From Rhodobacter sp. (lineage in GTDB: Bacteria; Pseudomonadota; Alphaproteobacteria; Rhodobacterales; Rhodobacteraceae), in NCBI GenBank assembly GCA_030065095.1, contig JASJDP010000018.1, positions 1 to 64,000 on the forward strand: DNA of 64,000 bases, given 5' to 3'. Below are positions 43,742-56,899 of this stretch, one piece after another (the first letter of the stretch is position 1; each line of letters begins with the position of its first letter). The position numbers and the translations under genes are program-made. The notes under the pieces are model-generated. The model was not told where the DNA came from. It did no database searches and saw only the letters and a list, made by a program, of their open reading frames with translations.

Positions 43742-45472
43742 TCACTCTGGACACTCGATGACGCCAGTGGCCGCCCCGTCAAGTCCGACGCTCTCGTCTT
43801 TCAGCGTGCAGCCCTCCTCGTCATCCAGGATCTCTTTGAGCCATCTGAGCACAGTTGGTGCGCCGAGTTGCACATAGATGCCACCTGCGACTTCGCCCAA
43901 ATTAGTGCATGTGCCGTCTCCGGTCCCTTTATGGAGCGGCCGCGACGTGATGGCCGCAATATGCCACTCGTTCTCGCCGACTTTAACGTGGACCGGGCCA
44001 CCGCTATCGCCGATACACGTGTCCTCGGGCAGCACTTGTTCGTAGTATTCGCCATCAAGGCCCCAGACATTCCCCAAGCTCGCCAGTTGAAACGTCGGGA
44101 TCACTTGCCGCGCTTCAACCAATCGAAAGTCCTCAAACGGCGACGACAGCACAATCTCGAATTCCGAATGGCAGACCCGCTGTTCGTCGGGCCGGTCATC
44201 CTTACAGGCGGTGGTGTAGAGCCCCAAATTCACGAACTGCTTTGTGCCGGAAAGCACGTCCAGACCGGTGGACGTACGGTAGGGGTTCGCGCCGTAGCCG
44301 GACGCCCGGTAGTGCATCATTTTCGTCAAATCGCCAACGTGAATCTTGCTTATCCGCTTTTCGTCGAAGCGGCCGCTGCTCAATTCGAAAAGGGCCAGGT
44401 CCGGTGTTTCGAAGAAGGTGTCACCGGAATCGTTCGGGCCACAGTGTCCCACTTGTCCTTGCTCATTCGGCTTGGTGTGAAGCGTTTTGATAAGGTTTAT
44501 GATGCCCAGGTTTCGGACGGTTACCTCTGTGTTTTTGTTGTTGCCGAGGATCTCGTAGGTATCGAAACTTTTCCAGGTGTTGGCTTCCCGGCAAACGCAG
44601 TGCGCGGCCGTTAGGACATGTTTGGGTGACACGATCACGCCGGTACAGTCCGTCCAGCCGGGGCTTTTGGGATAAATGTCCGCACCAGTCGCGTCCACGT
44701 CGATCCGCTTACCGAGGTCCGGAAGTCCATCAAAAAACAAAGACACCGTGCCCCAGCCCGTGAACCCCTCCAACTCCTCTGGACCGGCAAAAATTGTCTG
44801 CCCCGTTGACGTCGTGCCCGAACCCGTCGAAAGCAGGCTGCCGATCCCGACACCGACACCGCGACCGGTCAATTCCAATGACGGGTCGGTCCGGCGGACC
44901 GGGACGGCCATTCCCTCACTATCGCCAGACGTAAACCAAGGGGAATCCAGGCCGCGACCAGTGCTCTGGATACACACCGCACCCGGTTCGACTTCCGCCT
45001 GGATCGCGGCGGAGTTGGCATAGAGGAAGTTGGCCATGAACTCTCGATCCGTCATCTGAATCTCACGGGGCCACGCGCCGGACGCCTCAAACAAACGATC
45101 CATACAGTAGCCGGCGGGGTTCCGGCGGTTGATCACGGGCGCATAGGCCAGGGGACGCCCCTCCATGAACATCATGACGGTCTTGCTGGTGTTGTCCTCG
45201 AAGGCCAAGAGATCGCCCGCCCGGTTTGGGTCCAACCCGTTGTCAGTCACGGCACCTAGGAACTTGATTTCCCCGTCCGTGGCCTGTGCCCAGGCGCGCG
45301 GATCCTCGATGAGCTCTGCGATAGGACTTGTGGTGATGGTTACATTCTCGGCGTAGAACTTAAACGACTTAAGGCTGGCCTCGAAAGGGTCGCTCGTGTC
45401 TTGGGCCTGTGCGATCGTCGAAAGCGTTGCAAAAGCACCCGCGCCGATCATTGTTTTGAATGTCTTCATCAT
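43742..45472 (-). CDS. Secreted S1-family (trypsin-like) serine protease with a long N-terminal region
   Basis: 576 residues with a Sec signal peptide (cleavage near AQAQ at about 23). A roughly 250-residue N-terminal region of unknown fold precedes the protease. The triad is complete: His291 (LTAAHCVC), Asp358 (PDLALFEL) and Ser490 (CIGDSGGP). Several Cys pairs suggest disulfides in the envelope. The C-terminal part (ITSRPLHKG, GGIYVQLGAP) resembles the protease encoded at 54473, so the two are paralogues. It is third in the leftward operon, 11 bases after the PAP2-subtilase gene. Confidence 0.87.
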   Translation of the reverse strand: MMKTFKTMIGAGAFATLSTIAQAQDTSDPFEASLKSFKFYAENVTITTSPIAELIEDPRAWAQATDGEIKFLGAVTDNGLDPNRAGDLLAFEDNTSKTVMMFMEGRPLAYAPVINRRNPAGYCMDRLFEASGAWPREIQMTDREFMANFLYANSAAIQAEVEPGAVCIQSTGRGLDSPWFTSGDSEGMAVPVRRTDPSLELTGRGVGVGIGSLLSTGSGTTSTGQTIFAGPEELEGFTGWGTVSLFFDGLPDLGKRIDVDATGADIYPKSPGWTDCTGVIVSPKHVLTAAHCVCREANTWKSFDTYEILGNNKNTEVTVRNLGIINLIKTLHTKPNEQGQVGHCGPNDSGDTFFETPDLALFELSSGRFDEKRISKIHVGDLTKMMHYRASGYGANPYRTSTGLDVLSGTKQFVNLGLYTTACKDDRPDEQRVCHSEFEIVLSSPFEDFRLVEARQVIPTFQLASLGNVWGLDGEYYEQVLPEDTCIGDSGGPVHVKVGENEWHIAAITSRPLHKGTGDGTCTNLGEVAGGIYVQLGAPTVLRWLKEILDDEEGCTLKDESVGLDGAATGVIECPE

Positions 45473-45483
45473 ATCATACCTCC

Positions 45484-48258
45484 CTAGCTCTGCAGCTTTG
45501 CAATGCCATGGCCCGACACTTGTGCGTTGTAGCCGTCGCGCGCGCCCGGTGTGTAACGCGCCAAAAGTTCGTCACGGATCCTGGGGCCGTCGCTCCCGCC
45601 AGCGAATTCGGCGGCGATTCGCGCGGCCAGCCCGGCCACGATTGCCGATGCGGCGGAGGTGCCTCCGAAACCATGGCGCTGCTTGTCATGCGTCCAGCGC
45701 GCATCGGGGTCGTCGGCGTAACCGCCGTGGCCAGCAATATCGGCCGTGGGCACAGAGGTGTGCCAAACCGACCGGTCTTTAGAGCACCTTTCGAACGGTG
45801 AAAACTCAGCCGCGCTCGGGGCCAGCAAAGTGACGCCCCAGCCGCTTTGCGAATAGGCGGCCTTCTCTGTCTTGGCCGTTTTGCGATGGACCTTCGCCGC
45901 GCCGACGTTGATTATTCCCGTACCTTCGAACGGATCCGATGCGCCCGCCACTATGTTTCTTCTGTCCAACGCATAAGCGGCAAGCCCAAGCCCTTTGAAT
46001 GCTTCGTCAGTCGTGTCGAACGACTCGTCCCCGTTCGAGGCACTGGAACGGACAGAGACCAGAGCATTCAGAAGAACCGCCTGGTCGCATTGCTCGCGCA
46101 CCCAAGCGTTTGCTCCAAAGAAGTCGGCCAAGCCTTTTTTGAGCTCCTTGACCGCTTCCGGATCTGCGTCGTCCGATAGCCCCCCAAGAAGCATGTCGAT
46201 CGCCGGGATGGGGTCGTCTGCAATTGCGCGAAAGACGCGCCCGTAGTCCGCAGGATCGCTTGGATAGCTCAACTCCGTGTCGGAGCCGTTGTTGCCCGCT
46301 GGAAGAACGATCGCTGCCTTGTGTTGGGCAATGATGATGGCAAGGATCAACGGATCGACCAAACCCGCACCATAGGTGTCCTCGTAGTCTTTGGCGGGAG
46401 GCTCGAACACCGGACCGAGCAGAACCACATCCACAGGCTTCGGCAGGGTGAACACCGCCTCCAAGAGAGCTGTTGCCACCGCTATCCGGTTTGCATGGCT
46501 ATCGCTGACATACGTACCAAGCCGCACCGGGAACAAGGTCGCCTCCGGCGCGACCCCATGCAGCGGATAAATGACCTCCGTTTTTTTGTTGTCTTCCGAT
46601 TCCGTCGTTTTCTCGGCGTATCGACCAACCATGATGCCCGCCATCGCGGTTCCGTGGCCGTCACCGCGCGACTGAAATGCCGAGGTGTCGAATCGCGGCG
46701 CCGGATAGTCCAGATTGAACCAAGTCGTAGAGGCGGGCTCTGCGTACTGAAAAGCGGGCTTTGGGGAATTCCGACCGAAGCACGGATGTGTCAGATCGAC
46801 GGCCGTATCAAAAAGAGCAATCGATGCATTTCGCCCTCCACTTGTCCGATCGGTGCCGGTTAGCCCAATGGCTTGCAGGTGCCATTGGTCAATAGGTTCG
46901 CTGGCGGCCTTTAGGCCCGGCTTTTCTGCGTTCTCGAACGCGCAAAGCTCTTCCCGCGGGACGTTCATGTCTCGCACGGTTTCCGCGATCAGCGGATCGA
47001 TCAGAACCTTTAGAAGCGGCCAGCAGGTCTGCGCTATGATCTTGCCTGCGGTGCTGTCGCTTTCGTAGTGCACGCCGGCCCACTCTCGGTTGACGCTGAT
47101 CCTCTGGGCGATGTCGAAGAACTCGGCGACATGTCCGCTGCGGTCGCCCATAACTTCGGTCATTGCATGGGCCAGCAGATAGGCCTGGGTCGCGTGCCCC
47201 GACGGATAAGCCGCGTGATTTGGCGCCGTGACCACCGGAGTGAGCAGGGGCTCGGCCACATGTGGACGAACCCGCTGATAATGGCGTTTGAAATGTGCTG
47301 CGATGATCAGGCCGGACTGCTCGACAATTGCCAGCATGCGCAGCAAGCTGGTGGGGACACCCGCCTCGTTCATGAAGCTTGCCAGAAACGGCGAGGTGAT
47401 ATCGGTCACCTGCTGTCGAATCTCGTTTGCCAGAGCGCCGTCGAGGCCGCCAAGCCGTGCGTGCAGGATCTCTTGCTTCTCAAGCAAATCGTCGAGCTCT
47501 TGCCGGCGTTTCGGGCCAGCGTGGTCAGGGTCGGGTAGAAGCCGCAAACGCTTGTGCGAGCCATCGTCGTGCCGGTCTTCGTTCCAGCCCCCCCACAAGA
47601 GGTCCTGAAAGTGCCGCATACTTCTGTGCACGGCCCCCCTGTAGTGGTCATCCTCAAGCGCATAGGTGAAGCCCAAGCTCGCCGTGCTTAAAAGCTGACG
47701 CTGCGCACTCGTATGAGTTTGCCCGTGCGTGTGCGTTTGAGCGTGGGTGTGCGTGTGCGTGTGCGTGTGGGTGTGGGTCTGGCCCTGTGCGTGGGTTTGC
47801 CCATGCGTATGGGTGTGCGTGTGGGTATGCGTTCGGCCATTTGGCAGGGGCTCGGAGTCTTCGACAACGCTACGCACGAATAAGCTGCGCGGAAACTCTT
47901 CCGGTTCGGATGGACAAATCGCATTGTGGTGCGGGTGCGGGTTCTCATCGATTTTGTGACCATGCTCTTCTTTGCCATGGCTATGTTCGACCTCGCGGCC
48001 CTGCCCCTTGTACAATTCGAGGAGGCTCCGAAAAGGCATGCCGCGCTCTTCTCCCCGACGGCATTCCGCCATTGTGACGGGAACGCGGATATTCTTTGCC
48101 TCGATCTCGAAAGCCTTCTTAAAGAGGTCCGAGAGATCGTCGGTACCGGCGCGTTCTTGCGCGCTGACGTGTTGCGCCATCAGCGACAAGGTCGACGTAC
48201 TTGCGGCAAGCGCGCCCCAGGCCGCCGTTGTAAGAAGATGCCTACGTGAAACGTTCAT
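45484..48258 (-). CDS. Tat-exported PAP2/vanadium-haloperoxidase-like domain fused to an S8 subtilisin-like protease
   Basis: 924 residues, an unusual fusion. A twin-arginine signal (SRRHLLTTAAWG) ends near residue 33. A His/Thr-repeat tract fills about 143-184. A PAP2 or haloperoxidase domain at about 190-430 has the full anion-binding set: K324, R331 and P332 (KRHYQRVRP), PSGH at 352-355, and R391, H397 and D401. An S8 protease at about 470-924 has Asp484 (LFDTAVDLTHP), His535 (GDGHGTAMAG), oxyanion Asn656 (PAGNNG) and Ser868 (GGTSAASAIVAG). An ATG at 48258 with GGAGGGG is favoured over TTG at 48264. The first domain could be a phosphatase or haloperoxidase; the sequence does not decide. 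It is second in the SARP-headed operon. Confidence 0.86.
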   Translation of the reverse strand: MNVSRRHLLTTAAWGALAASTSTLSLMAQHVSAQERAGTDDLSDLFKKAFEIEAKNIRVPVTMAECRRGEERGMPFRSLLELYKGQGREVEHSHGKEEHGHKIDENPHPHHNAICPSEPEEFPRSLFVRSVVEDSEPLPNGRTHTHTHTHTHGQTHAQGQTHTHTHTHTHTHAQTHTHGQTHTSAQRQLLSTASLGFTYALEDDHYRGAVHRSMRHFQDLLWGGWNEDRHDDGSHKRLRLLPDPDHAGPKRRQELDDLLEKQEILHARLGGLDGALANEIRQQVTDITSPFLASFMNEAGVPTSLLRMLAIVEQSGLIIAAHFKRHYQRVRPHVAEPLLTPVVTAPNHAAYPSGHATQAYLLAHAMTEVMGDRSGHVAEFFDIAQRISVNREWAGVHYESDSTAGKIIAQTCWPLLKVLIDPLIAETVRDMNVPREELCAFENAEKPGLKAASEPIDQWHLQAIGLTGTDRTSGGRNASIALFDTAVDLTHPCFGRNSPKPAFQYAEPASTTWFNLDYPAPRFDTSAFQSRGDGHGTAMAGIMVGRYAEKTTESEDNKKTEVIYPLHGVAPEATLFPVRLGTYVSDSHANRIAVATALLEAVFTLPKPVDVVLLGPVFEPPAKDYEDTYGAGLVDPLILAIIIAQHKAAIVLPAGNNGSDTELSYPSDPADYGRVFRAIADDPIPAIDMLLGGLSDDADPEAVKELKKGLADFFGANAWVREQCDQAVLLNALVSVRSSASNGDESFDTTDEAFKGLGLAAYALDRRNIVAGASDPFEGTGIINVGAAKVHRKTAKTEKAAYSQSGWGVTLLAPSAAEFSPFERCSKDRSVWHTSVPTADIAGHGGYADDPDARWTHDKQRHGFGGTSAASAIVAGLAARIAAEFAGGSDGPRIRDELLARYTPGARDGYNAQVSGHGIAKLQS
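47707..47832 (-). repeat. In-frame GTGTGC-type tandem repeat encoding a His/Thr tract
   Basis: On the plus strand the segment is built from repeated gtgtgc, gtgggt and gtttgc-like hexamers, which on the minus strand encode alternating Thr and His (HTHTHTHT, broken by GQ and AQ). Tandem repeats of this type can gain or lose units by slippage. Six-base units would keep frame, so length should vary without frameshift. The tract could bind metal ions such as zinc, copper or nickel. Confidence 0.85.
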
Positions 48259-48278
48259 CCCCAATCCCCTCCCATGGT

Positions 48279-50006
48279 TTAGATATTGCCAAGCTTCTCC
48301 AGAGCATCGTGAATCGCATGACGGCTACGCTCTTGAGGAAGCGGGTAACCCGGATCGAGGACGCTCTTTGCCGTGAAATCACGGTCGAATTTTCTGATCT
48401 CGGACAGTGTGTCCAGTGCGTCATCGTATCTTCCCTCGGCCACGAGACTGATTAAGACGTGGCGTTGACTGGTCAGAAATCTGGGTCGACGAAGCCTTAC
48501 CAAATGTGCATTGTGGATCGCCCGTTTGTGATCACCATGGAGTGCCGAGACATTTCCAACGACCGAGTCGTACCAGAAGGCAACCGGGTTGAAGCGCGCC
48601 ATACGTTGGGCCGCCAGCGACAGGTTGTAGGCGTCCTGGATCTGCCCCGAGTAGAACAGATTGAGCGCCAGAAGGTTCTTGGGAAAGGGCAAATGCTCAC
48701 TGACGGATTGGCTGGCCACGAGCAGGTGTCGCCCAATCTCGAAATTGCGCAAAGCAAATCCGTGTACATGGCCCACCAGCGCAAGAACGATGGGGTTGGA
48801 AGAGCCGCCCTCAAGCGCCTTTGAGCACAGCATCTCGGCTTCTTCGCGCAATGCAGCATCGTTCGGCAGCATCCTCTCTGCAACTCGAACAACCAGCGAA
48901 AACGCCTGCCACGCATAGGTGAGGCTAGTCGGCTCGGTGCAGTTCAAAACACTCAGATGACGGCAGCTTTCTTCGACGCCATCCGTTGACATGGAAAACA
49001 GCTGGTGCACCAACGCGTATAGCGGGAGCTCACTCATGATTTTTTGGTTTTTGAATAGGCCGGCATGCGTTGAGTCGATCGCTTGGTGGACGAAGGCAAT
49101 GATCTGCTCATCCGAAAGCTCCGAGGCCCCGCCATTTACGGCAATGGAAGACGACCAGATGACTTCGCCGGATCCAAATCGGTTCGCCGAGAAGTTCAGG
49201 GAAAGATCATGATTGCTAATCCGAGCGTGGACCTGGACGACGGCATCAATTTGCCTGTCCAGTGACTGCAGCCCGGAAAGCTGGTTGGAAAGCACGTCCC
49301 GCGCATCATAAACAGTGACAAAGCCCTGCTCCCGCGCGAACTGGCCGAACATATCCGTGATCCGTTCAGCGACCGCGAGTTCCTCCACTCGTTCGGGAAG
49401 GCAAGTCGGTGGCAGCAAGAGCACCCAAGGCAGATAGCTACTTTGGTCCGCCTTCTCGGCAACTGCGACCCTGGTGTGGCCCTTTTTTGAGTATAGCCTG
49501 TCCTCCATAGTCGCGGTTGCCGAGTGCAACCAGTCAGACGCCTCCCCTTCCAGGATCGGAGCATCCTCAAAGAAACGGCTGTCTTGGTCGGCGGGCTCAC
49601 ATATTTCTACGTCTTCAAGCCAAACGTAGTATCGGTCCGTCTTCAGGTGTTTCTCATTGTCGCCCAGGTCTTTGCGTATACCCGCCAACAATGTTCGAAG
49701 TCGTTGTGACGCGGTTTCTTCGTCACTCGCATCTGGCCAGAGTGCCGTGCGCAACCAACTGCGCGCCCGGCGCATGTCCCGGGCTGTGGCAAGCATCATC
49801 AGAAGAGTCCGAGCGTTACGGCTCCTGATTCGAAGGTCAAAACCTTCGCTGGATTGCAACGTAAAATTCCCAAAAACATGCAATTTCATGAGTTTAGCCT
49901 CAAATGCGTCTTCCAGTTGTTCTGAAAGTACGACTAACCCATGTTTTGAAGAAGTGGGTTTTTGAATCACTTGCATTTCGTGATTGGGTTTCTCTTCATC
50001 ATTCAC
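48279..50006 (-). CDS. SARP-like regulator: winged-helix, TolB/FlgO-like and TPR regions
   Basis: 575 residues with no signal peptide or membrane segment. Residues about 38-135 are an OmpR-type winged helix in the style of SARP proteins (LHVFGNFTLQSSEGFDLRIRSRNARTLL, then SQRLRTLLAGIRKDLGD). About 185-320 resembles the TolB/FlgO-like domain of cyclase-linked regulators (DAVVQVHARIS, GEVIWSSSIAVNG). The rest is TPR-like helical repeats. An internal ATG at 49889 (MKLHVFGN) with a GAGG site is an alternative start. It heads the leftward operon and likely controls both directions. Confidence 0.83.
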   Translation of the reverse strand: MNDEEKPNHEMQVIQKPTSSKHGLVVLSEQLEDAFEAKLMKLHVFGNFTLQSSEGFDLRIRSRNARTLLMMLATARDMRRARSWLRTALWPDASDEETASQRLRTLLAGIRKDLGDNEKHLKTDRYYVWLEDVEICEPADQDSRFFEDAPILEGEASDWLHSATATMEDRLYSKKGHTRVAVAEKADQSSYLPWVLLLPPTCLPERVEELAVAERITDMFGQFAREQGFVTVYDARDVLSNQLSGLQSLDRQIDAVVQVHARISNHDLSLNFSANRFGSGEVIWSSSIAVNGGASELSDEQIIAFVHQAIDSTHAGLFKNQKIMSELPLYALVHQLFSMSTDGVEESCRHLSVLNCTEPTSLTYAWQAFSLVVRVAERMLPNDAALREEAEMLCSKALEGGSSNPIVLALVGHVHGFALRNFEIGRHLLVASQSVSEHLPFPKNLLALNLFYSGQIQDAYNLSLAAQRMARFNPVAFWYDSVVGNVSALHGDHKRAIHNAHLVRLRRPRFLTSQRHVLISLVAEGRYDDALDTLSEIRKFDRDFTAKSVLDPGYPLPQERSRHAIHDALEKLGNI

Positions 50007-50561
50007 CAGGTGTGGCCCTAACTAGCTGCCTCAATACATCTCGACTTCCTCCGCGCCCCCGAGATTAGAGAAATTTCGGTATCACAATCCGGACAGCACG
50101 ATTCATCGAGCACACCCCGAGTCGCAGATCCCCGTTAATCTACCGTTGGTGTTTCGTGAGCCTTGGGTGCAAATCTACGCAGAAAAGCACTGGGTGTGGC
50201 TGACACTGAGACGGTGATCGGGCAAAATCCACATTGATTGGGCCGAACTCGATCTACGCGGGCGCCTTCCATCACAGCGTGGAAATTTCCAATTAAAATC
50301 ATTGGCTTATTTCGCGAACGTGTTTCGAAAAATCATGTACGCGCTGCGAGTCTGCACGTCTTTTTCTTGGGGTGGCCGGTTAGAATCCTTCAAGATTAAC
50401 CGAAATTTAACGTTTCGAACCCGCTGAAATTACGGCCTCCCAGTACTTCGTGTCCCAGCCGGCCCTTTGCCGATCAACCGAGCGATTCCACTCGGGATGA
50501 TTTGCCTAGGGCATCGAAATGGCGCGGCCACATAGCTGTGCAAGATGACCGGAGCAGACTG
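50007..50561. promoter_or_regulatory. Divergent regulatory spacer of the protease/haloperoxidase island
   Basis: 555 bases, visibly AT-richer than the flanks, with no gene. It contains several symmetric sequences: GGAAATTTCC (50281-50290), two GTTTCGAA copies (50322-50329 and 50412-50419), CGAAA-N7-TTTCG (50401-50417), and an imperfect hairpin CGGTTAgAATC/GATTAACCG (50377-50402). It should hold both divergent promoters and binding sites for the SARP-like regulator. No confident -35/-10 pair was identified. Confidence 0.6.
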
Positions 50562-52505
50562 ATGACGAGATCAAAACTGGAAGCCGGCGCTGATCGCCGC
50601 AACGCCGCTAAACTGCGCCGTCGGAATGCCGCGGATGGATCGGGGCACTTGCCGGTCCTCACATCGATCGGAAACGGGGACGAGACCAAGTATGCCCAGA
50701 CGCAACCCGCAAGTTTCACCAAGGGCCTTCACCATGACGAATACGGCTTGGCCCCGAGCGCGGACTACGCCGCCTTTTGCCACGCCGTCGCAAAGGGCGA
50801 TCCGGAAATGGGCGGTCTGCAGATCGCTGCGGGACCAGACCAACGCAAGTGGGAGAGCCCGATTGCCGGGAACTACTTCAACGATATGGGAGCAGATCCA
50901 GACGCCGTCGCCATGCCACCTGCCCCGAAGCTTGGCCGCAGCGAGCTTTGCGCCGAGCTGGCAGCCGTCTACGCAATGGCGCTGACGCGGGATTTGCCAT
51001 TCGAGGCCCTGCAGAAGGCAAACACGCCCATCCCCCACATTACCACTGGTGGCAGTCCGGTCACGGTTGGTGACCTTGTGAATGAGCTGCGCAAGCTCAG
51101 CTGGTTCGACACAAACGGCACTCCGGTGGGCTTTAAGGGTATGGCCCTTACAGATCACGAGAGACGGCGCCGCGAGGCCAATTGGGAGACCAAATCCAAG
51201 GGATTGACAGTCGACGTCCTGTTCCGCGGCTCGACGCCGGGTGCCAAGAAGGGCCCCTACATCTCGCAATTCATGCTGATTGGGACCGACGACCTTTCGG
51301 GCACCGCACCAGCCAAGGGGCAAATCGCCTACGGCCTTCAGACGATCACTCAAGCACAATTGGTACCGGAAGCCGAAAAGGACTACATGACGACCTGGGC
51401 CGACTGGCTTGAAGTGCAGCAGGGCCAAGGCTTTGACCAACCGCCGCACAAGACGCGCCGCCGCATCCATACACCGCGTGACTTGGCCGGATACGTCCAT
51501 TTCGACGCGCTCTATCAGGCCTACCTGAACGCCTGTTTGATCCTATTGGGCAATGGGCTTGAGGTCGACGGCGGCAATCCAATCGCGCAAGAGCGGCCCG
51601 ACAACAGCATAGGCTTTGCCACCTGGGGTGGGCCGCACATACTGAGCCTGGTGACCGAGGTCGCCACCCGCGGCCTGCGCGCGGCACGGCGAACCAAGTT
51701 CCAGGTGCATAGGCGGGCCCGACCCGAGGTCCTCGCAGCGCGACTGACCCAGGTTGCCAACGCACATGTCGGCCATATGGATCCGGGCGCGGTCATCCAG
51801 ATCGGGAACATGCTTAGTGAACTGGGCTTCAATCCGGAAAATCAGGTGGTCCGGCCCGGGTCGATCCTCGACTGGATCACCCAACATAACAAGAAGGCCA
51901 ACAACGGTTCGGCAGCGACCCCAATCCACGACGACAAGAACTTCCTTCTACCGATGGCCTTTGTCGAGGGGTCACCGATGCATCCAGCCTTCGGCGCAGG
52001 GCATGCCACGGTCGCCGGGGCCTGCGTAACGATCCTGAAGGCATTCTTCGAGGGCAACGCCAAATACAGTGACGTGATCAAGGGCGGTGGCACACACTAT
52101 GCGGCCGACAAAGCCGACAACCTTGTCGCCTCACATCGCAAGGATGGCAATGATGCGACGGTCTCGGAGGAGCTCGACAAGCTCGCCGCGAATATCTCGA
52201 TCGGGCGCAATATCGCCGGCGTGCACTACTACTCGGACTACTACGACAGCCTGAGGATGGGTGAGCGGATCGCCGTCAGCATCCTAGAGGAGCAGATGCA
52301 CACCTACCATGAGCCCGTGTCGCTGAGCCTTACGAGTTTTGACGGCGACGCCATCAAGCTCGGCACGACCGGAGGCACTGGCCCCGCAGCTGTCAAGGTG
52401 AAGATCACCAACGCAAGCGGCCTGCCGGAGCTTCGCGATACGTGGTGGACCCGAGACCTGGAAGACTACGGCATCGTCGAAGACGGTTCTGGCGCGGGGG
52501 TCTAG
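50562..52505 (+). CDS. Algal-type vanadium-dependent haloperoxidase (bromoperoxidase) homologue
   Basis: 647 residues, no signal peptide. The vanadate site of the algal bromoperoxidase class is nearly complete: Lys379 and Arg387 (KFQVHRRARPE, spacing 8 as in algal enzymes), His474 (PMHPAF), His481 (FGAGHAT), Arg549 and axial-ligand His555 with Asp559 (GRNIAGVHYYSD). The usual PSGH reads GAGH, so the Ser that hydrogen-bonds vanadate is Ala. The enzyme may oxidise halides or act as a phosphatase. ATG at 50562 has a GGAG site; TTG at 50502 is open upstream. First gene of the rightward operon. Confidence 0.84.
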   Translation: MTRSKLEAGADRRNAAKLRRRNAADGSGHLPVLTSIGNGDETKYAQTQPASFTKGLHHDEYGLAPSADYAAFCHAVAKGDPEMGGLQIAAGPDQRKWESPIAGNYFNDMGADPDAVAMPPAPKLGRSELCAELAAVYAMALTRDLPFEALQKANTPIPHITTGGSPVTVGDLVNELRKLSWFDTNGTPVGFKGMALTDHERRRREANWETKSKGLTVDVLFRGSTPGAKKGPYISQFMLIGTDDLSGTAPAKGQIAYGLQTITQAQLVPEAEKDYMTTWADWLEVQQGQGFDQPPHKTRRRIHTPRDLAGYVHFDALYQAYLNACLILLGNGLEVDGGNPIAQERPDNSIGFATWGGPHILSLVTEVATRGLRAARRTKFQVHRRARPEVLAARLTQVANAHVGHMDPGAVIQIGNMLSELGFNPENQVVRPGSILDWITQHNKKANNGSAATPIHDDKNFLLPMAFVEGSPMHPAFGAGHATVAGACVTILKAFFEGNAKYSDVIKGGGTHYAADKADNLVASHRKDGNDATVSEELDKLAANISIGRNIAGVHYYSDYYDSLRMGERIAVSILEEQMHTYHEPVSLSLTSFDGDAIKLGTTGGTGPAAVKVKITNASGLPELRDTWWTRDLEDYGIVEDGSGAGV

Positions 52506-52508
52506 GCG

Positions 52509-52739
52509 ATGGCAGAGTTAAAGGGTGCAAAAAGCTTGGGCACGCCCGTTTCTAGCTTCGACAGCAATCAGGCACTCGCGACGATGCTCAAAGCAAAGTC
52601 CACGGATGTCTCTCGAGCCGCAGATCTTGAAATCCGCGATAACGCCGATGTGCCAAACACCCCTGTAGAAAAGGTGGCCGTGACCTTCGGTGGTCTGGCA
52701 CTGCCGATCACGAATGTAACTGAGGATGCAGTTAGCTAA
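52509..52739 (+). CDS. 76-residue protein of unknown function
   Basis: Begins 3 bases after the haloperoxidase-like stop and ends just before the lipoprotein gene. It has no signal peptide, membrane segment or Cys. Acidic and Val/Ala-rich, with a C-terminal VEKVAVTFGGLALPITNV that is predicted to form strands. No family recognised. Tight spacing on both sides supports it as a real operon member, perhaps an inhibitor or partner of a neighbour. Confidence 0.65.
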   Translation: MAELKGAKSLGTPVSSFDSNQALATMLKAKSTDVSRAADLEIRDNADVPNTPVEKVAVTFGGLALPITNVTEDAVS

Positions 52740-52749
52740 GGGGAAAGAC

Positions 52750-53415
52750 ATGCGAAGTGTAATCTTGGCGGCGTGCTCTGCAATGCTTTTGGGCGCTTGC
52801 GCAGATCAGTATCTGCTGAAGGAAGAAAAGAAAGTTATCTCGGCAGAGAACGTCGGACCAAGTTCCAACTTGGACACGTTGGCTGCTTTCAGCCGAAGCA
52901 TGTCCGTCGCCTATAGAAGTGCCGCACGAAAGACTACGACCACGCAGGACGTGCAGTCGTTCCTGATCATTCTTTCTGCGGCCTCTTTCGTGCACGGTGC
53001 GGTCGGAAACGTGTCCGATGTCGCCTTGGCAAATCGAGCGATTGTCGGCGCGACGACTCAGCAAGTGGGCCTGCGCACAGCTCCCAAATCGGCGATCATC
53101 GGCATGTATACAGGCGCCAAGCGCTTGAATTGCATCGCGTCGGTAGCGTCCGTGGGCACAGTCACGCTACCGACGGGTTTGACGCGCGTTGCCGCAAGCG
53201 CATTGGTCTTCGCCGCGATCGAGGAGGTGCGGATCACAACCCGCGAAAGCCTCGTCCGAGAGGTCGCGAATTACGACGCGTTGGTCACGGCAATCGATCC
53301 GCGCCCAGACCTTCGCGCGATCGAATCAGAGCGTAGTGCGGACATGAACGCGATTCAGGACTTTTCGAAGAAGCTGGCGCAATGCCTGCAAAAACAACCC
53401 GAGGAGACGTCCTGA
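52750..53415 (+). CDS. Predicted lipoprotein of unknown function
   Basis: 221 residues. The signal peptide ends in a lipobox (MLLGAC, Cys at residue 16), so it is anchored to a membrane on the periplasmic side. The rest is mainly helical (SRSMSVAYRSAARKTTTTQDVQSFL), with two hydrophobic stretches at about 70-95 and 130-160. The ATG at 52750 has a GGGGAAAG site. It lies in the operon between the small protein and the amidase. Function unknown. Confidence 0.78.
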   Translation: MRSVILAACSAMLLGACADQYLLKEEKKVISAENVGPSSNLDTLAAFSRSMSVAYRSAARKTTTTQDVQSFLIILSAASFVHGAVGNVSDVALANRAIVGATTQQVGLRTAPKSAIIGMYTGAKRLNCIASVASVGTVTLPTGLTRVAASALVFAAIEEVRITTRESLVREVANYDALVTAIDPRPDLRAIESERSADMNAIQDFSKKLAQCLQKQPEETS

Positions 53416-53562
53416 GCAAGGACTGAAGGCATGCGTCAATCGCAGGCCCAAGCCGAAGCCCTGAGGCAAGCCCTGAAGGCGAAGCGCGGACGCGACCTGA
53501 CGACGATGGGCAGGTCATCCGACGCTTACCTCGTCAGAACAGCGTGTAGAGGAGATCACATC

Positions 53563-54273
53563 ATGCTCGAGAAAATTGAAGAAAAGATCCGCGACGGTGG
53601 GACACTGTCGGAAGAGGAGTTCGACGCACTTCGTGCATTGCGGGAGAGGATTGCGGACATCCAAGACATCGCCTCAGGCCGTCTCCTTGAACTCAGCGAT
53701 GTCGAGCTTGAGCGCTCCGCCGGCAGTAACGGCTTTGCCATTGTGGTGGGACATACAAACTTGAGCAAGGGCGCCACGGCCACGTCACCCATCAGCGCGC
53801 GCGAGTATCCCTGGAACAGGGATTTGGCTGAGAAGGTTCATGCGATTTGTCGTGCAAGGAACATCACGTCCCGGATCTTTTATCGTGACGGTATCGGGAT
53901 TCGGGGTGCCTATCGGCAGGTCGCGGCGTGGGGCGCTGCCTTCGTTGTCGAACTGCACTTCAACGCCTTCAATGGGCGGGCGCATGGCACGGAGACGCTC
54001 TTTGATGCCGATCGAAACGCCGGGTCGAAGGCCTGGGCGCAGCGGCTGCAAGACGCGATGCTGTCCGGTCTCCAGTTGCGGGACCGCGGGTTGAAAGAGC
54101 GCGATCCCGGTGACAGGGGTTATGCAAGCGTGTCCGCGTTGAACATCCCATCGGCCTTGATTGAGCCGTTCTTCGGCGACAATCCGTCCGACGCCTATAT
54201 CGGCCACACCGGGAAGGATGACCTTGCCGAGGCCGTTGCGGATGCCGCGGCTGCGCAGATCTCCGGCAGTTGA
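53563..54273 (+). CDS. N-acetylmuramoyl-L-alanine amidase (Amidase_3-like)
   Basis: 236 residues. The zinc-amidase set is present: His in IVVGHTN, Glu in AREYPWNRD, His in ELHFNAFNG and catalytic Glu in SALIEPFFG. It should cleave the amide bond between MurNAc and the stem peptide of murein. The ATG at 53563 has GAGGAG upstream; the frame is open back to 53431. The helical N-terminal 60 residues carry no signal peptide, so export would need another route, as in phage-type endolysins. It lies between the lipoprotein and protease genes. Confidence 0.84.
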   Translation: MLEKIEEKIRDGGTLSEEEFDALRALRERIADIQDIASGRLLELSDVELERSAGSNGFAIVVGHTNLSKGATATSPISAREYPWNRDLAEKVHAICRARNITSRIFYRDGIGIRGAYRQVAAWGAAFVVELHFNAFNGRAHGTETLFDADRNAGSKAWAQRLQDAMLSGLQLRDRGLKERDPGDRGYASVSALNIPSALIEPFFGDNPSDAYIGHTGKDDLAEAVADAAAAQISGS

Positions 54274-54472
54274 TCGCGATTACACAGCAACGAAAGGCCA
54301 GCGGCAGAGGTCTCTCTGGCACCTGACAGGCGCATACCAAACTGTGGTCCGCGTCGATTTCGGGACCGCGATAAATCAACGAAACACGCAGCTGAAAACC
54401 AAGCCTCTCAATCACAGACCGCAGGCATAAATAGTCAAGTTTTCCAACACGATAGAAAAAGGAAGTGTCCCA

Positions 54473-55888
54473 ATGACACAGCCCTCAGCGACACTTAACT
54501 CTGTCTCTCTTAGTCTTGTTCTGTCAACTACGCTCGCTTTGCCGCCCGCTGCGGTGGCGTTCGATTTGCAGGACAGCCCGGTCGTGCTGATCCAGTTCGG
54601 CGGAGGGAGCGGCCTGGGCGGCGGCGGTAGCCTCGGCAACAGCGGCAGCATCGGCACCGGAAGCATCGGCACCGGCAACCTCGGATCTACAGGGGCAGCC
54701 ACAACGCCTTCCATTGGGACTTTGGATGGCCCTGGCACCTCTCTTGTTACGGACGGCAACGCGACAATAACGGTGCCCCCGCTGACGGGCGGCACCGTCC
54801 CAACGCAGCCATTTAGCTTTGACAATTCTGTCAACATACCCGGTTTCACAGACACCGGGCCCGGTGACACGGTCTTCCCAGATTTAGGTGGTTTCCCGGA
54901 TGTCCCGTTGACGTCCGGGGGGCCTCTTCCGCCGATCGAGATGCCCACCATACCGCCGCGCGATCCTGGCGATTTTGCCGCGCATTGCGGCGTGACGATG
55001 GTTTGTGGGGGCGATCCGGCGGGACCTGTTACAGGCCCAACGGTGGCGCCTACAAGCGGGACGCGCGTTGCAGGCGTTGACGCCCTACCGGGAGAAAGCG
55101 CCAAGACCGAGGCCGGATTGAATGAGAAGGGCTCATTTGCCTCTCGCGTCAACCGCCTGTCCTTCCCGACGACGGTCGCGCTGCAGTACTCGGACCGCGT
55201 CCCAAAATGCAGCGGCGTGCTCGTCTCCGAAGAGCACGTGCTAACCGCTGCTCATTGCACTTGTGGGGAACGAGCGCTTTACGCCTACTTTGGCGAAACG
55301 CTTGTGCCCGCCCGGGTCCGTGGGCGTGGATTGCGCACGTCTGTCCCCCTTACCAGCCGAGCCACCTATTTCGACGACGGGTTTTGTGCCGCGTTCGACA
55401 AGGGCACGGCCTATGCCGAAGGCCATATCGACTTGGCACTTCTCACGCTGGATAGCTCACTGCCGGGAACGCTCGCCGCGGCGATCCTGCCGGTCGACCC
55501 GCTCTCGGATCTCGAGACCGAATACCCAACCTCCTACATCGTTGGCTTCGGTGAGAGCGACAATCGGTTCCGTCCGGGCGACAAAAACTTCGCCAGCATC
55601 GATCTGACGGCGCGACTTTGCAAGGACGGGCACGAGACCTGCATCCCCGGCAAGGAGATCGTGGCCGCCGACCCGCCGGTCGACACCTGCTTCGGCGACA
55701 GTGGCGGGCCGATGTTCTTGCAGGAGACCACTGGCGACGAGATGGAGCTCGCAGGGATCACCTCCCGCTCGTTCAAGCCGCGCGACGACGGCGATCCGCT
55801 GAGCTGTGGCGAAGGCGGCATCTACGTCTCGCTCGAGGCGCCAGAAATCCGGGCCTGGCTGCGCGCCCAGATCGATTCCAACAACTGA
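54473..55888 (+). CDS. Secreted S1-family (trypsin-like) serine protease with a Gly-rich linker region
   Basis: 471 residues. A signal peptide (about 1-29, cleavage near AVAF) is followed by a low-complexity Gly/Ser/Thr/Pro region at about 40-200 (GSIGTGSIGTGNLGS). The protease domain has His261 (LTAAHCTC), Asp320 (HIDLALLTL) and Ser410 (CFGDSGGP). Its C-terminus (ITSRSF, GGIYVSLEAPE) resembles that of the protease encoded at 43742. An AAGGAAG site precedes the ATG. Gene four of the rightward operon, 200 bases after the amidase gene. Confidence 0.86.
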   Translation: MTQPSATLNSVSLSLVLSTTLALPPAAVAFDLQDSPVVLIQFGGGSGLGGGGSLGNSGSIGTGSIGTGNLGSTGAATTPSIGTLDGPGTSLVTDGNATITVPPLTGGTVPTQPFSFDNSVNIPGFTDTGPGDTVFPDLGGFPDVPLTSGGPLPPIEMPTIPPRDPGDFAAHCGVTMVCGGDPAGPVTGPTVAPTSGTRVAGVDALPGESAKTEAGLNEKGSFASRVNRLSFPTTVALQYSDRVPKCSGVLVSEEHVLTAAHCTCGERALYAYFGETLVPARVRGRGLRTSVPLTSRATYFDDGFCAAFDKGTAYAEGHIDLALLTLDSSLPGTLAAAILPVDPLSDLETEYPTSYIVGFGESDNRFRPGDKNFASIDLTARLCKDGHETCIPGKEIVAADPPVDTCFGDSGGPMFLQETTGDEMELAGITSRSFKPRDDGDPLSCGEGGIYVSLEAPEIRAWLRAQIDSNN

Positions 55889-55909
55889 TCACCCAAGGAG
55901 GAGAAAGCC

Positions 55910-56899
55910 ATGGGACATATTTTCGCCAACCCTGCACGCGTCGGCTGTATCGCGGCGACGATGGCCGCGACGACTTTGACGGTGGCACCCTCGGGCAGCT
56001 TGGCCCAGTCCCGGATCGATGATGCCCGCTCCGAGCCGCGGATCATCAACGGGCAGGAGGTGCTCGCCGGCCAGGGCCCGTGGGCAGCCTCATTGCGCTT
56101 CCAAGTGGCGCCTACGGATGCGAGCTCGACACGCCACATCTGTGGAGGATCTTTCGTGTCGCCGCTGCTGTCGGACGACAAGGAACGTGTTGAGGACTGG
56201 ATCAGCGATGACCCCAACCCGGAATGGATTGTCACCGCGGCTCATTGCGTGGTCGATCGTAGCGGCAATCTGGAGGACAAAGATCGCCTCACCGTTTTCG
56301 GCGGCGCCCGGAATCGCACCAATCCCGATGGGAGAGGCCAGGTACAGCAGGTTGTAGAGATCATTCCGCATCCGCAGTTCGACGTTGAGACGCTTGAGAA
56401 CGACATCGCGCTCTTGCGCCTGTCCCCGCCAGTGGCCAACAGCCTGCCCGCGACCCGGCGCGCGAGCATCCGCTTCCCTGCACCGCGAGACACCAATTGG
56501 ATCAACGAACCCTATATGTCGGTTTACGCACAAGGGTGGGGTACAACTGAGACAGGAAGTGACTCACTTCTCCTTAAAGAAGTGCAATTGCCTGTCGTCG
56601 ACCGTACTCTTTGCCAGCGGAAGTTCTCAATTCACGGCGAGATAATCGGCATTGGCATGCTGTGTGCGGGCTTCGTTGACGGCAATTTCGACAGCTGCCA
56701 GGGCGACAGCGGTGGCCCGCTGGTCTATCGGGCGGAGGGCAATATTGCCATTCCGCGCAGCCCCGAGCCCGTTTTGGTCGGTGTCGTGAGCTGGGGCATC
56801 GGCTGCGGTCGCGCGGATCTTTTCGGCGTCTACACCACTGCGTCCGTGTATCGGAAATGGGCGGAGGAGGCCGTTGTCGCTGAGATCGGAGTCGAATAG
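55910..56899 (+). CDS. Secreted trypsin (S1A) with zymogen activation site
   Basis: 329 residues with a signal peptide ending near LAQS. The zymogen cleavage site R44-IINGQEV precedes the protease domain. The triad is His112 (VTAAHCVV), Asp165 (ENDIALLRL) and Ser267 (SCQGDSGGP). Asp261, six residues before the Ser, fits Arg/Lys specificity. The remaining cysteines match trypsin disulfides. A strong AAGGAGGAG site precedes it. Last gene of the rightward operon. It could activate its neighbours, which is inference. Confidence 0.9.
   Translation: MGHIFANPARVGCIAATMAATTLTVAPSGSLAQSRIDDARSEPRIINGQEVLAGQGPWAASLRFQVAPTDASSTRHICGGSFVSPLLSDDKERVEDWISDDPNPEWIVTAAHCVVDRSGNLEDKDRLTVFGGARNRTNPDGRGQVQQVVEIIPHPQFDVETLENDIALLRLSPPVANSLPATRRASIRFPAPRDTNWINEPYMSVYAQGWGTTETGSDSLLLKEVQLPVVDRTLCQRKFSIHGEIIGIGMLCAGFVDGNFDSCQGDSGGPLVYRAEGNIAIPRSPEPVLVGVVSWGIGCGRADLFGVYTTASVYRKWAEEAVVAEIGVE

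Follow-up and report, generated by a model that had tools for sequence, protein, structure and literature searches.

Does the divergent gene island at positions 43742-56899 of the window (the whole 64,000-nucleotide stretch of Rhodobacter sp. DNA analyzed here, contig JASJDP010000018.1) represent one conserved system, and if so, which of its genes belong to that system? An initial annotation, made from the sequence alone, had described nine genes in two tight divergent arms, and the open reading frames (gene boundaries throughout are those of mechanical open reading frames), Pfam and Protein Data Bank (PDB) entry 5lpc agreed with the positions and families given there. The leftward arm comprises a regulator, a PAP2-subtilase fusion and an S1 protease; the rightward arm comprises, in order, a vanadium bromoperoxidase, a 76-amino-acid protein, a lipoprotein, an Amidase_3 enzyme and two S1 proteases (Table 1). 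The conserved core of this arrangement is the regulator, a soluble PAP2 phosphatase and a protease (hereafter, the module), and the window holds an elaborate copy of it.

When PAP2 was searched across the family, class and phylum and the gene neighborhoods of the matches were read, the three-gene set turned up repeatedly. The regulator was in no query and the protease in none except the fusion queries; after removal of near-identical copies, 162 PAP2 proteins remained, and a regulator was nearby in 140 of them, giving 140 distinct regulator-linked PAP2 loci, mostly from Alphaproteobacteria. Genome sampling was uneven, and the statistics below are uncorrected for phylogeny. A protease class was assigned in 108 of the 140 loci, and nine more had an A4-type protease behind PAP2. 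A tblastn search of plasmids with the fusion returned sets of a SARP or winged-helix regulator, a PAP2 phosphatase and an S8 peptidase from Sinorhizobium, Phyllobacterium, Aliiroseovarius and Phaeobacter, and the same gene order, with the first gene unnamed, from Palleronia. A scan of named genomes added Acetobacteraceae, Methylobacterium, Bosea, Reyranella, Mesorhizobium, Bradyrhizobium and Rhizobium, and a Caballeronia plasmid supplied a member from Burkholderiales. The claim of a recurrent set under a SARP-like regulator, undescribed in the open-license literature searched, was thus supported. Recurrence in distant taxa had been proposed beforehand as the test of that claim: it holds for regulator, PAP2 and protease; a haloperoxidase likewise recurs beside the module, and its set with the 76-amino-acid protein and lipoprotein was seen once more (locus L242). 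A single conserved unit of nine genes was not supported: the amidase and both rightward S1 proteases had no counterpart in any module locus read. The absence of these three genes beside other modules is what would be expected if unrelated envelope enzymes had come together by chance in a single strain, but the core recurs in 140 distinct loci and a haloperoxidase lies beside the module in 11 family genomes; recurrence rules out chance clustering for regulator, PAP2, protease and haloperoxidase, though chance may account for the amidase and the rightward S1 proteases, and as an account of the whole island it is scarcely credible.

The feature that sets the module's phosphatase apart is a perfect tandem repeat, with units of two to four residues, located N-terminal of the PAP2 catalytic domain, which was present in 121 of the 140 regulator-linked loci. 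At least 64 different units were recorded (e.g., NR, NK, TK, SR, GR, TGN, DAR, NSF, GGF, GWE, EAV, DGAV, GGLN and GAGS), and the median array length was 22 residues among the first 100 arrays. None of 14 related PAP2 proteins lacking the regulator had such a repeat (p = 3e-11); several of these resemble secreted proteins of another subfamily, and the repeat is therefore a property of the module's PAP2 subfamily. Comparable runs occurred in 5 of 1641 other genes of the module loci, two of the five being artefacts. Codon identity between adjacent units was 0.363, versus 0.425 expected from local codon usage (p = 3e-6), and codon sharing fell below expectation in 72 of 100 arrays. Since codons are scrambled and neighboring units share them less than random, selection holds the repeat as an amino acid sequence; this selection is strong, and an origin as a DNA microsatellite is ruled out. 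Among Phaeobacter strains, the only differences between arrays were synonymous changes or a single unit more or fewer. The unit was identical in 30 of 30 pairs with PAP2 identity above 80%, in 133 of 144 pairs at 60-80% and in 8 of 3820 pairs below 40%, i.e., it is stable within lineages and turns over at approximately 50-60% PAP2 identity; in some related pairs one position was changed in every copy (AVN/GVN, KS/RS, NR/GR). The enzyme domain itself is conserved, with PAP2 motif residues invariant in alignments of 24, 47 and 48 sequences and a modeled domain (predicted local distance difference test score, pLDDT, ~85-97) whose closest folds are class A acid phosphatases. The fold and active-site motif are shared with the non-specific class A enzymes PhoN and PhoC (PDB 7f17); unlike these, the module's PAP2 has a repeat tail, mostly lacks a signal peptide and is tied to a regulator and a protease.

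In the window, PAP2 and protease form one Tat (twin-arginine translocation)-exported polypeptide. PAP2-S8 fusions were found in six genomes, that of the window and five others: the window fusion is 31-34% identical over its whole length to those of L155, L156, L158 and L159, and the L157 protein likewise aligns as a fusion. The Thr-His stretch of the window protein, which the initial annotation had overlooked, aligned with the TK and GR arrays in the remaining fusions and is probably the local form of the family-diagnostic repeat tail, although the array is interrupted (GQ, AQ), with a longest perfect run of 12 residues, whereas its relatives have perfect TK or GR. A whole-fusion AlphaFold model built from six sequences was poor (pLDDT 47) and served solely to assess disorder in residues 1-200. 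Scanning genome contigs for the pattern with the single fusion protein returned nothing, and neither did the alignment A2, which was too diverse. At L155 (Roseobacter cerasinus), where the fusion also has a Tat signal, a weakly similar S1 protease occupies the same place as the window's leftward S1 protease and is its positional counterpart. In three fusion loci a similar reading frame of ~170-200 amino acids, which may be a gene or a conserved control region, abuts the regulator (L156:4518-5051, L157:1391-1912 and L159:4299-4904).

Module regulators are cytosolic and share one body, a TolB_N/FlgO-like segment plus TPR repeats, preceded in some by a SARP winged helix and in others by a class III nucleotide cyclase. 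The window regulator aligned over its full length with 20 module regulators and was 35% identical to those of L156 and L159. Known SARP/AfsR-type and cyclase-TPR regulators likewise place a winged helix, BTAD or Guanylate_cyc domain before TPR repeats; in the module, by comparison, both front ends share the TolB_N/FlgO-like and TPR body beside the same PAP2. A direct-repeat search upstream of the regulator found no convincing SARP site. Partner proteases fall into three subtilase types, a papain-like C1 class and an A4-type class, and catalytic residues are conserved in the S8 and C1 enzymes. The module protease shares the domain and catalytic residues of S8 subtilases, but the fusion subtilase scored 43.2 bits with the type VII secretion mycosin model TIGR03921, against a cut-off of 278.75, and the module protease is distinguished by being fused to, or adjoining, PAP2. 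Repeat length tracked protease class (chi-square p = 7e-27): two-residue units, most of them pairing a small residue with Lys or Arg, accompanied subtilase type a and the fusions; three-residue units accompanied type c and, for the most part, type b; and four-residue units accompanied C1. Together with the fusion, this distribution supports, short of proof, the view that tail and protease are tied physically or functionally. We also considered an acidic subtilase pocket for the basic repeats, which found no support, the residue before YP being mostly Ile.

The tail was disordered in the structure model, as would also be expected if it were a self-assembly tag, a perfectly periodic disordered chain that stores phosphatase, protease and peroxidase in latent form as a condensate or fiber, with distinct units keeping paralogous modules apart. 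Poly-GR, SR, FG-like NSF/GGF and silk-like GAGS are known assembling sequences that many tail units resemble, and the two-module genomes encountered here use two different units. Differing paralogues are, however, expected by chance given 64 units, the units DAR, NAE, EAV and GKE are atypical of condensate formers, and repeat length follows protease class; we regard self-assembly as unlikely.

The peroxidase add-on of the window is a vanadium bromoperoxidase cassette. The first rightward gene encodes a full-length member of the family represented by the Acaryochloris marina (PDB 5lpc, E = 6e-102) and Corallina enzymes, with the vanadate-site motifs KFQVHRRARPE, GAGHA and GRNIAGVHYYSD retained; its predicted activity is vanadate-dependent halide oxidation. 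Unlike its known relatives, it is tied to a regulator-PAP2-protease module and not to a biosynthetic cluster. A haloperoxidase or an animal-type heme peroxidase adjoins 23 of the 140 modules; within the family, a haloperoxidase lay within ~5 kb of a module in 11 of 24 haloperoxidase-bearing genomes and a heme peroxidase in 8 of 37 genomes bearing that enzyme, each of these linked neighborhoods having been read directly. At the L159 fusion locus the haloperoxidase is 40% identical to that of the window and has exactly the same divergent arrangement relative to the regulator. Arranged beside the module at L242 (genome G171) as they are in the window are homologues of the haloperoxidase (68% identity), the 76-amino-acid protein (105 amino acids, 46%) and the lipoprotein (42%). 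From this gene set and the recurrence of the haloperoxidase, the three genes are most readily interpreted as a module cassette. Unit letters were alike (GHE, GNQ, GWE) in five of the seven haloperoxidase modules L244-L250 (L245-L248 and L250), which may hint at an association of repeat type with the accessory genes. Two further peroxidase neighborhoods were recorded: at L041:14508-18299, a 1263-amino-acid protein combining trypsin, non-specific endonuclease and subtilase domains lies beside the module's heme peroxidase, and on a Pseudanabaena plasmid (L034) a haloperoxidase gene is split by an IS630 element, with genes for a multiubiquitin-domain protein, ThiF and DUF6527 as neighbors.

A haloperoxidase next to hydrolases might also indicate a biosynthetic or nutrient-scavenging island, devoted to halogenated metabolite chemistry or to digestion of polymers outside the cell, in which linkage reflects shared regulation only. 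Acid phosphatases and proteases are common digestive enzymes. Bacterial vanadium haloperoxidases have known natural-product roles (PMC8407465). Within the island, though, there were no biosynthetic genes, none was seen as a constant part of the module, most of its proteins lack an export signal, and the repeat tail would go unexplained, making this origin quite improbable.

An envelope or outside location had been claimed for most of the set on the basis of signal or Tat peptides on five proteins, and five export signals were read from the sequence: predicted Sec signals on the three S1 proteases, the Tat signal on the fusion and a lipobox on the 229-amino-acid protein, with none seen on the regulator, haloperoxidase, 76-amino-acid protein or amidase by reading of their sequences. 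An exported set is borne out for the window and L155 fusions but not for the module in general. Most PAP2 and protease partners lack a signal peptide, and their usual site of action should therefore be the cytosol.

The linkage of the genes, their conserved active-site residues, the selection on the tail and the fusion are established steps, and we consider it moderately probable that the module is real and that its phosphatase and protease work together as a single unit. In the mechanism we propose, the regulator would sense stress or an intruder and turn the set on, and the repeat tail would be a multivalent recognition or assembly element uniting phosphatase and protease. The protease might dock on the tail, cut it or be held by it; this docking or cleavage role is somewhat unlikely as it stands. 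Once released, phosphatase, protease and hypohalite chemistry would do damage, with the cell's own contents as the probable target or, in the exported version, the envelope or a neighbor, a damaging effector role that we put at slightly less than an even chance.

Several observations weigh against this proposal. The association of repeat length with protease class is uncorrected for shared descent, the window's own repeat is degraded, and most module loci have no peroxidase. PADLOC 2.0 defense models gave no match to the core proteins of the window and other loci, the window yielding only weak matches of two trypsins to LmuA/Avs1b. Within subtilase type b, moreover, it is the regulators and not the proteases that are more alike between loci with a common unit (10 pairs), suggesting that the repeat is read by the regulator. 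The same small sample favors a tail that is a multi-copy peptide precursor, from which the protease frees short identical peptides sensed by the regulator's TPR body, as in peptide-TPR signaling. Identical units with scrambled codons are what a multi-copy signal precursor would show, and the constant partner is a TPR regulator of SARP or cyclase type. Kexin-processed repeat precursors and TPR-peptide signaling bring together identical units, a protease and a TPR receptor in one set, as the module does. In contrast to kexin-type precursors, though, the module's units are very short (2-4 residues), follow one another with no spacers and sit on an enzyme whose invariant PAP2 active site implies more than a precursor, and most members lack an export signal. 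A precursor is thus a decidedly unlikely explanation. To the broader proposal of a new bacterial effector or signaling system, in which a lineage-specific amino acid repeat, kept perfect by selection and guarded against DNA slippage by codon scrambling, is the working part and is read by the protease or by the TPR regulator, we assign about even chances.

No system was identified with NCBIfam, PHROGs or PADLOC, no relative of the PAP2 was found in a phage collection, and the open-license literature yielded no description of the module. A megablast comparison of the island with plasmids gave no match. The window's genome comprises 5.34 Mb in 62 contigs, with the window on a contig of 100.7 kb; G+C content is 0.53-0.62 from ~42 kb onward and 0.62-0.70 to the left of that point. 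Paralogous proteases on both arms, as the initial annotation had noted, were evident from the similarity between the leftward S1 protease and the first of the rightward pair.

Table 1. Coordinates of island features in the window.
Feature	Position	Strand	Basis or remarks
Regulator	48279..50006	-	SARP-type winged helix at start, TolB_N/FlgO-like middle, TPR-rich C-terminus
PAP2 phosphatase-subtilase fusion, Tat signal	45484..48264	-	Pfam PAP2 and Peptidase_S8; ATG 48258 probably start
Imperfect Thr-His repeat tail	47695..47835	-	Tandem repeat 47725-47832, period 6
PAP2 catalytic domain	46960..47532	-	Motifs K-x6-RP, PSGH, NR-x5-H-x3-D
Subtilase domain	45490..46836	-	D486, H537 and S870 of fusion, invariant across six aligned fusions
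Exported S1 protease 3' of fusion	43742..45472	-	Pfam trypsin; predicted Sec signal
Vanadium bromoperoxidase	50502..52505	+	Likely start ATG 50562; no signal peptide; PDB 5lpc match
76-amino-acid protein, haloperoxidase cassette	52509..52739	+	Homologue in L242
Lipoprotein (229 amino acids), haloperoxidase cassette	52726..53415	+	Lipobox LLGAC; homologue in L242
Amidase_3 murein amidase	53431..54273	+	Pfam; endolysin-like PHROG
S1 protease, paralogue of 43742-45472	54473..55888	+	Pfam trypsin; similarity to leftward protease
S1 protease	55910..56899	+	Pfam trypsin, E = 8.5e-44

The window's genome contains a second module, L092 (G000:C6:114714-121366), consisting of a divergent regulator, PAP2, subtilase and a heme-peroxidase-like protein followed by an arginase-family gene, with NTRSGx as the degenerate repeat of its PAP2. 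L258 holds two complete modules within 20 kb, with units GS and SAY. On Rhizobium leguminosarum and Sinorhizobium plasmids (L149 and L032), two genes come after the S8 gene, one for a putative peptide-modification protein with HEXXH and one for a ThiF-family adenylyltransferase. Genes of a possible conflict type also lie near modules and encode a PNP_UDP-KAP-HD protein, a caspase-like protein and a SAM-cyclase-AAA-TPR protein (L242:12745-16107, L244:2-1819 and L048:10627-13965, respectively), and homologous 983-amino-acid proteins occur near cyclase-type modules with no assigned protease (L228:4221-7172, which lacks a Pfam match, and L103:10441-13392).

The module is widespread and is carried on plasmids of cultured Phaeobacter, Rhizobium leguminosarum and Palleronia, and for some bacterial haloperoxidases it provides a genomic setting other than natural-product clusters. 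Its orthologous enzymes carry, at the same place, more than 60 different units that are perfect in amino acids yet scrambled in codons, and it is this identity of copies, together with their joint change without homogenization of the DNA, that needs explaining.
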